This document shows, one piece after another, positions 25,973-48,978 of a stretch of DNA of 48,978 nucleotides. The translations under genes and the position numbers were made by a program. Origin of the DNA: Acidobacteriota bacterium. Lineage in GTDB: Bacteria; Acidobacteriota; Holophagae; Holophagales; Holophagaceae. A model generated the notes under the pieces. That model was not told the origin of the DNA and ran no database searches. It saw only the letters and a program-made list of their open reading frames with translations. Where the stretch lies: positions 1 through 48,978 of the forward strand of contig JAJYRN010000019.1 in the NCBI GenBank assembly GCA_021794095.1, given 5' to 3'. How positions within the stretch are numbered: the first letter of the stretch is position 1; every line of letters starts with the position of its first letter.

Positions 25973-26809
25973 ATGCGCCCTGCCCTGCTGGCTCCCCTTG
26001 CCATCCTGGCCCTGGCCGCGCCTGTCCAGGCCGCTGGCCGGATCGCCGACCCCGTTGCCACCGAGATGTCCCTGACGACCCCAGATGGGTTCGTCATCAA
26101 AGGCACCCTGACCTTGCCCCCCGCAAAGCGGAAGGTGCCCGTGGTGATCCTCGCCCACCAGTTCGGCTCCGACCGTTCCGGCTGGGCGCCCCTGACCGAG
26201 GCGCTCCACGCCCGCGGCATCGGCACCCTGGCCATTGATCTGCGCGGACACGGCGCCAGCACCCAGAAGAACGGAACCGAGGTGAAGGTCACCAGCGATT
26301 TCGCGGCCTCCGCCAAAGCGGTCGGCTTCGACCAGATCCCCAGCGATCTCGGCCTCGCCGCCGCCTGGCTGCGCAAACAGCATGGTGTGGATGGGCGCCG
26401 CCTCGGCCTCGCGGGGGCCAGCATGGGGGCCTTTTCCGTGATCCTGGCCGAACCCCTGGTCCATCCCATCGCCGTGCTGAGCCTCAGCCCCGCGGGCAAC
26501 GTGGCCTTCGGCGACCATGCCATGGACGAATTCAAGGCCGACATCCTGAAGGGCCAGGCCTCCGTGCTGGTCATGGCGGCCAAGGACGACAAGGGCGCCT
26601 ATGACAACGCCGAGGCCGTGAAGGGCCTCCCGGGCGTGGATGTCATCACGGCGGAGGGCAAAGCGCACGGGTTCGACTTCTTCAAGGACCGCGTGGACAC
26701 CATGGCCGTCTTCTTCGGGGAGTACCTGACCTACCACCACCTCGGACAGACCCACGCCAGGCCCGCGAAAAAGGAAGCCGCGGCCCCCGCGGGCGACAGC
26801 TCGAACTAA
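25973..26809 (+). CDS. Secreted alpha/beta hydrolase (esterase/dienelactone-hydrolase type)
   Basis: 278 aa. A signal peptide is clear (MRPALLAPLAILALAAPVQAAG). The alpha/beta hydrolase fold shows VPVVILAHQFGSDRSGW (oxyanion region), LAIDLRGHG, the nucleophile elbow GLAGASMGAF (Ser in GASMG), then ASVLVMAAKDDKG and EGKAHGFDF, carrying the Asp and His of the triad. The substrate is unknown. The C terminus is a charged tail (KKEAAAPAGDSSN). The structured repeat begins on the very base after its TAA stop, so transcription must run into or end within the repeat. Confidence 0.85.
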   Translation: MRPALLAPLAILALAAPVQAAGRIADPVATEMSLTTPDGFVIKGTLTLPPAKRKVPVVILAHQFGSDRSGWAPLTEALHARGIGTLAIDLRGHGASTQKNGTEVKVTSDFAASAKAVGFDQIPSDLGLAAAWLRKQHGVDGRRLGLAGASMGAFSVILAEPLVHPIAVLSLSPAGNVAFGDHAMDEFKADILKGQASVLVMAAKDDKGAYDNAEAVKGLPGVDVITAEGKAHGFDFFKDRVDTMAVFFGEYLTYHHLGQTHARPAKKEAAAPAGDSSN

Positions 26810-27080
26810 GGAGCTGGAACGGAATAATCGTTGCCATCGTTGACGCCCAGCCGCGATGCATCCGCAAGGAAGGGCCCGCAGGGCCATGTGGTTCATGGTT
26901 CAAGGGCCCTGACGCCGCGGGGCGCGCGGATGGGCGTCAACCCTCCGGGCGCGGGGTGGCGGGCTGCGCGATCCTGCGTCGGCCTCGGTTCACGGAGTCC
27001 CGCTCCGCTGGAACCTCAGCCTCCTTGACTCACTTGCCCGGCACCCCGCGCGATGGCATTGCTTATTTCGTTCCAGCTCC
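26810..27080. repeat. 271-bp structured repeat with 30-bp terminal inverted repeats (copy 1)
   Basis: The ends 26810-26839 and 27051-27080 are inverted repeats matching at 26 of 30 positions (outer arms GGAGCTGGAACG/CGTTCCAGCTCC). The interior can fold into several nested stems: GACGCCCA/TGGGCGTC, AGGGCC/GGCCCT, GCGCGGGGTG/CACCCCGCGC, GGTTC/GAACC. No transposase is encoded. The same sequence recurs at 48585-48930 with two extra modules. It is probably a miniature transposable element or a repeat carrying a structured RNA. The short frames it contains look incidental. Confidence 0.85.
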
Positions 27081-27098
27081 TCAGCTTTCCCATCCAAC

Positions 27099-27128
27099 AG
27101 GAAGGCCGCCCGGATAGGCGGCCTTCCT
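27099..27128 (-). terminator. Hairpin terminator after aceA
   Basis: A 12-bp perfect stem (AGGAAGGCCGCC at 27099-27110 with its complement at 27117-27128) with a 6-nt loop starts 15 bp after the aceA stop. The T-run is weak, but the stem is strong and could work in both directions, insulating aceA from the repeat. Confidence 0.75.
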
Positions 27129-27142
27129 GCGTACGCTTCCTC

Positions 27143-48584: not shown

Positions 48585-48930
48585 GGAGCTGGAACGGAAT
48601 AATCGTTGCCATCGTTGACGCCCCGCCGCGATGCATCCGCAAGGAAGGGCCCGCAGGGCCATGTGGTTCATGGTTCAAGGGCCCTGACGCCGCGGGGCGC
48701 GCGGATGGGCGTCCCCGCCCACGCAGGCGTGGGCGGGGATCTAAGGTCAACCCTCCGGGCGCGGGGTGGCGGGGAGGCTCCGACTCCGCGAGCTTGCGAG
48801 CGGGAGCCCCGCGCAGCGGGGCGTCAGGCGGAGGGCGATCCTGCGTCGGCCTCGGTTCACGGAGTCCCGCTCCGCTGGAACCTCAGCCTCCTTGACTCGC
48901 TTGCCCGGCACCCCGCGCGATGGCATTGCT
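48585..48930. repeat. Structured repeat, copy 2, with two extra hairpin modules and a truncated right end
   Basis: The sequence is near-identical to 26810-27063 (same orientation) apart from two inserts. One is 35 bp (48713-48747) forming a perfect hairpin, arms CCCCGCCCACGC/GCGTGGGCGGGG. The other is 61 bp (48774-48834) replacing 4 bp of copy 1, with arms CCCGC/GCGGG and others. The length balances exactly: 254 + 35 + 57 = 346, so no other gaps are needed. The right terminal repeat breaks at 48930 after GATGGCATTGCT. Confidence 0.85.
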
Positions 48931-48978
48931 GCTATGAAAATAGGACACGCAACTATTGCAATGGTTCGGACTCGATAT
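48930..48978. mobile_element. Possible insertion-sequence end (IS21-like) interrupting the repeat
   Basis: Where copy 2 of the repeat breaks off, the sequence turns AT-richer and reads TGCTATGAAAATAGGACACG. A 5' TG followed by A-rich sequence and GGACA is reminiscent of IS21-family ends. Only 49 bp are in the window, so this is a suggestion from composition and resemblance alone. Confidence 0.3.

Follow-up and report, generated by a model that had tools for sequence, protein, structure and literature searches.

A transposase-free mobile repeat of Acidobacteriota with a conserved interior of two inverted arms

The stretch of DNA analysed here (the window) comprises the 48,978 nucleotides of contig JAJYRN010000019.1 from an Acidobacteriota bacterium of the family Holophagaceae (GenBank assembly GCA_021794095.1). 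A 271-bp mobile repeat element without transposase (copy 1, 26810-27080) lies in the gap between two genes whose translations read as alpha/beta-hydrolase-like (25973-26809) and, on the opposite strand, isocitrate-lyase-like. Its left boundary is the first base after the TAA stop codon of the hydrolase-like gene. This TAA (26807..26809) is also the left copy of a TNA target (N, any base), and the right flank reads TCA (27081-27083). The element is delimited by terminal inverted repeats at 26810..26839 (+ strand) and 27051..27080 (- strand), and 26806-26839 and 27051-27084 are 85% complementary across 34 nt, which confirms the inverted ends of about 30 bp proposed by an earlier inspection of the window (the sequence-only reading). 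Both ends of copy 1 follow the pattern GGAGCTGGAACG(G/A)AATAA exactly, with 0.01 matches expected by chance in the window. The predicted fold of copy 1 has an energy of -178.9 kcal/mol and a z value of -12.2 against shuffled sequences.

The element is repeated and mobile. Besides fragments, the same genome contains at least 24 substantial copies (271-448 bp), among them copy 2 of the window (48585..48930, + strand), and 56 of the 77 family genomes match the element. Its size within 50-500 bp, its lack of a transposase, its terminal inverted repeats and its multiple copies are features of miniature inverted-repeat transposable elements (MITEs). TNA is present at 41/50 flanks of copies with window-type ends, and CTAG stands on both sides of 4/6 copies of a subfamily whose ends are of the type of the IS1182 insertion sequence (IS) family. 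A query spanning the hydrolase/lyase junction was matched in 46/47 genomes of the genus, and the element was absent from seven of the eight loci inspected (G014, G023, G024, G011, G021, G017 and G029); since the site is empty in relatives, the insertion in the window is recent. At the eighth locus (L218, genome G025), an unrelated element, roughly 190-200 bp long and flanked by CTAG, sits at this stop codon. Copy number, target and empty sites together bear out the proposal of a mobile non-autonomous element.

An alignment of 50 elements enabled us to investigate the structure of the interior. It supports a stem P1 formed by the inverted ends and additional inner pairs, two further stems, P2 (columns 36-140) and P4 (columns 150-251), and a small hairpin (P3) in the centre between them. 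The aligned cells are paired in 96.6% of cases, compared with 81% for shuffled alignments and 39-45% when the structure is slid along the alignment. Changes on both sides were identified in 57 of 91 pairs, a level reached by 0/500 shuffles, with counts referring to sequences and not to independent events. A smaller set of 21 sequences spanning two phyla is 89.1% paired, with 30 of 38 pairs changed on both sides. The nested stems read from copy 1 and the claim that differences between copies respect them are thus upheld by compensatory changes, but the example that had been cited for the latter is not: the base next to GACGCCC, A in copy 1 and C in copy 2, is uncompensated in copy 2 (GACGCCCC vs GGATGGGCGTC) and disrupts a pair retained by 48/50 relatives.

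A single conserved arm, present twice in inverted orientation, makes up the interior. Arm A (P2, 26836..26949) is read in the + sense and follows the order CAAGG ... GCAG-hairpin-CAAG ... GACGC; the covariation-based arm model R2, whose training set consisted of P2 (left) arms only, matches it with 98.2 bits (E 1.1e-17). The same model finds arm A' (P4, 26941..27052), the inverted copy, on the - strand with 26.1 bits (E 0.004), and a P4 match on the reverse strand was likewise obtained at most of 41 element loci, with E values between 4e-15 and 0.02. The small hairpin CCC-TCC-GGG (26941..26949) lies at the dyad between the arms. When both arms are aligned in sense, they have CAAGG, GCG/GCAG, CAAG and (G/A)ACGC in common, the general pattern being CAAGG...GCNG-hairpin-CAAG...GACGC with near-invariant bases in the internal loops. 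The complementarity of AAGG with CCTT and of GACGC with GCGTC had suggested two kissing pseudoknots joining P2 to P4; this was dropped, as P4 being an inverted copy of P2 accounts for the complementarity. A resemblance of GCAAGG to twister-sister was likewise abandoned for want of an Rfam match.

This interior, or core, occurs throughout Geothrix, in other Acidobacteriota and also in some Pseudomonadota, enclosed by differing inverted ends. Window-type ends occur in 16 of the 77 family genomes. The arm was found in 31 of 297 sampled Acidobacteriota, other families included, and in 6 of the 349 genomes from the phylum to which the Nitrosomonas metagenome-assembled genome G347 belongs; in a deeper search of 12 genomes, nine contained it with 1 to 22 matches apiece. 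Plasmid and phage collections gave no match to the element and nothing convincing for its relatives. The arm model gave one Azospirillum plasmid stretch (L250, 2473-2583) a score of 27.5 bits, weaker than real copies (E 0.0002 with 4 kb searched), and the Azospirillum matches in the plasmid collection concerned flanking sequence; two records filed there as plasmids (NZ_CP119140.1 and NZ_CP119142.1) are chromosome-like 2.17-Mb records of Neisseria gonorrhoeae. Nothing in Rfam scored above the gathering threshold, the matches at E 1-5 being chance-level, which agrees with the suggestion of a possibly undescribed family. No earlier description of the element was found in a partial coverage of the literature, which does not by itself prove novelty.

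Copies with the same core carry the ends GAGTGCCTAACAAAACC, GAGCTCATAACAAAACC, GAGGTCGTAAC, GGAGCCTGTCCAAGTA, GGGGCTGGAAAGG, AGAGCCTATCC and AGAGCCTGTT, and also GGGCATCTCTGAACAA and GGAAGCTCTGAACAAG, and some of the end types resemble those of known transposons. An IS1182-family IS in genome G027 (NF033551, E 2.5e-114) has ends of the form CTAG followed by GAGCCTGTCCAAGTA, and the CTAG-flanked core subfamily (ends GGAGCCTGTCC), which has two copies in the own genome but does not include the window copy, matches it in both ends and target. An IS5-family IS in G025 (NF033580) is bounded by TTA|GA....CTAACAAAACCC on one side and GTTAGGCACTC|TTA on the other, resembling the TNA-inserting GAGTGCCTAAC core subfamily. 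Neither IS contains the arm, nor does any of the transposase loci examined: across 167 kb of such loci, the only R2 match was a known element in L032. Since these IS5- and IS1182-type IS lack the core, the element is no plain deletion derivative of them.

Based on these findings, we consider it probable that the elements are non-autonomous, are mobilised in trans by IS5/IS1182-type transposases and bear a conserved two-armed structure. DDE transposases of these types would act on the inverted ends, and insertion would occur at TNA, or at CTAG in another subfamily; in this GC-rich genome, TNA would often be a stop codon. The two-armed interior would form the conserved unit, while the ends would be exchanged or re-matched to the transposases at hand. 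Several observations weigh against this reading. Neither a transposase with window-type ends (GGAGCTGGAACGRAATAA) nor an autonomous element with the ends of the window copy was found in the 77 family genomes, and neither PF01609 nor PF13340 was matched in the own genome, so that mobilisation of the window copy is inferred from the sister subfamilies; on the question of matching ends of a known IS, the outcome is mixed, with no IS found for the window ends and IS5- and IS1182-like ends in sister subfamilies. The likeness to the IS5-family IS is partial at the left end (GAACGG vs GAGTGCC). Exact 3-bp target duplications occur in just 11 of 25 own-type copies, compared with a partner-shuffled mean of 6.8 and maximum of 13. 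Between subfamilies, conservation is about equal for paired and unpaired columns. The asymmetry of GU and AC combinations described below is modest, and its cells are non-independent. As for the remaining flank pairs in the own genome, most are T-N-A with a differing middle base (TTA..TGA, TAA..TCA), which may be due to flank exchange through recombination between copies.

MITEs are usually regarded as decayed remnants of a single IS, and the TNA target, the GAG-type ends and the existence of an IS5-family IS with similar ends would all fit plain deletion derivatives of IS5-family elements with a functionless interior. We regard this as unlikely, as the arms are absent from every transposase locus examined and a single core with strong covariation is common to several end types, target types and phyla. 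The element could alternatively terminate transcription of the preceding genes or form the 3' ends of their mRNAs, as had been suggested for the 3' end of the hydrolase-like gene. In a set of 60 copies from many species, whose flanking genes were called heuristically from a simple codon score, 36 of 63 flanking gene 3' ends are no more than 6 bp away from the element, compared with 5 of 55 gene 5' ends. However, random choice of a TNA within each gap predicts 18.7 insertions at stop codons and 17 were observed; the TNA at a stop codon is TAA or TGA, and target preference alone accounts for the contact. Moreover, a bidirectional terminator-like hairpin with 13-bp perfect arms is kept beyond the element (27098..27129), and a similar one occurs in some relatives without the element. 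No T-run terminator was found within the element, and 12 of the 58 copies with two flanking calls sit between divergent genes. A role as 3' end of the hydrolase-like gene is accordingly unsupported, and we consider such a role very unlikely for the family.

The arms themselves may act as RNA or as DNA. An RNA read from each arm in that arm's sense predicts more GU than AC in P2 and the reverse in P4 when both are counted on the + strand; the observed GU:AC ratios are 20:7 in P2 and 18:26 in P4 (Fisher p = 0.008). This asymmetry following arm polarity moderately favours RNA. Selection for a + strand RNA over the whole element had been entertained and was given up, as the core totals (GU 38 vs AC 34) are accounted for by the opposite polarity of the arms. 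It is nevertheless quite possible, though not the view we favour, that the arms function as DNA, either as cruciforms or single-stranded hairpins or as subterminal sites bound by a transposase or host protein; in that case, selection on DNA pairing, or copying between inverted repeats or element copies, would account for the paired changes. The dyad symmetry of the element agrees with a DNA role, as do the frequent two-sided changes among close copies (49 vs 113 one-sided in the core) with few GU intermediates overall, the appearance of the P3 loop in both orientations (TCC/TTC and the reverse complement GGA/GAA), and the terminal stems, where GU:AC is 46:32 without clear bias. The bias that tracks arm polarity and the near-invariance of bases in the sense arm's internal loops speak against it. 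It appears quite unlikely that the element gains an advantage from the arm as a guide or catalytic RNA, be it ribozyme-like or recognised by a specific protein: the CAAGG/GACGC and GCNG/CAAG internal loops are near-invariant over two phyla, but Rfam gave no meaningful match, with E values of 1-5.

Judging from these sequence patterns, the two-armed structure may act as RNA in either orientation. With inverted arms, a transcript of either strand would have one arm in sense and would thus yield a structured RNA whichever way the element is inserted. More tentatively, and with considerable doubt, we propose that the inverted dimer is a long-lived selfish or domesticated RNA unit, and that its spread to at least two phyla came about through repeated adoption of the ends of different transposon families. 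One structured interior outlasts its ends: two phyla have it in common, and its ends correspond to transposase families and targets that differ. If this is confirmed, it would be a structured mobile unit of simple design that borrows transposases and functions in both orientations, and the purpose of a MITE interior would become a testable question.

The BOX and RUP elements of Streptococcus pneumoniae have another host and other end types and are set apart here by description. They are modular structured repeats with many copies, as is the element described here (PMC3049150). The MITEs of IS5/IS1182-type transposons are alike in being short, transposase-free and intergenic, with inverted ends, a TNA or CTAG target and a stable fold; in contrast to them, the interior here does not derive from an IS at any of the loci tested; it is conserved between phyla and combined with several end types. 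Like REPINs, whose two inverted copies of a structured unit form one long hairpin and which have many intergenic copies (PMC3116915), the element consists of an inverted pair of structured units, as the R2 match on the opposite strand demonstrates. Its arms are around 105 nt instead of the short repetitive extragenic palindromic (REP) sequences, and it has DDE-type inverted ends and target. The Correia repeat enclosed elements (NEMIS) of Neisseria also possess inverted ends and a long RNA stem but are 155 bp with ends TATAGTGGATTAA (PMC2649163). In a gonococcal Correia element (L251, 401-555), the motif order ACAAGG/CGCAG/AAG/AACGC and the internal-loop pattern look similar by eye; a relationship was nevertheless rejected, as R2 reaches at most 5.2 bits within that element.

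Copy 2 is interrupted after the core CT of its right end by an IS110-family element, whose end occupies 48931..48978 (- strand) where the contig stops; the same CT target core is contained in the right terminal inverted repeat of other copies. The complete IS110-family element is 1,561 bp (L032, 2457-4017) and encodes a recombinase matching NF033542 with 237 bits (E 2.7e-70, above the curated cut-off). In every junction seen, mostly at contig ends, it is inserted between GATGGCATTG-CT and TATT of the right end. Its noncoding end contains AAATAAG (candidate left-target guide, LTG, left target plus core) and ATAGCAG (candidate left-donor guide, LDG, left donor plus core), each an exact 7/7 match, and the candidate right-target guide (RTG) GTGTTGC forms 7 pairs including 2 wobbles. 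Three of the four bridge-RNA-like guides were found around the AG core, and the right-donor guide (RDG) is without a clear candidate; the order LTG-RTG-LDG is consistent with a loop that binds the target and, after it, one that binds the donor (model of PMC11208160). Judged by these matches, the element is apparently an RNA-guided transposon programmed to the MITE end, adding a second layer to the system. The bridge RNA model and IS110-type elements targeting repeats or transposon ends are already known (PMC11208160 and its references). As with IS621 in REPs and IS4321/IS5075 in Tn21 ends (PMC11208160), one repeat-end site is used with guide matches around the AG core, but the target here is the end of the two-armed element family.

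Copies also differ in three small hairpin modules, M1 (43 bp), M2 (35 bp) and M3 (61 bp), which are present or absent at fixed sites (the window; L029, L213, L107, L060 and L168). Copy 2 carries two of them, M2 at 48714..48748 and M3 at 48774..48834 (limits approximate). In other species, M1 and M3 are also found in the other arm, and M2 was met once outside any element. At the other extreme, minimal elements of about 49-56 bp (G024:C40:9522-9570 in L089; G042:C171 in L080) consist of barely more than two inverted ends.
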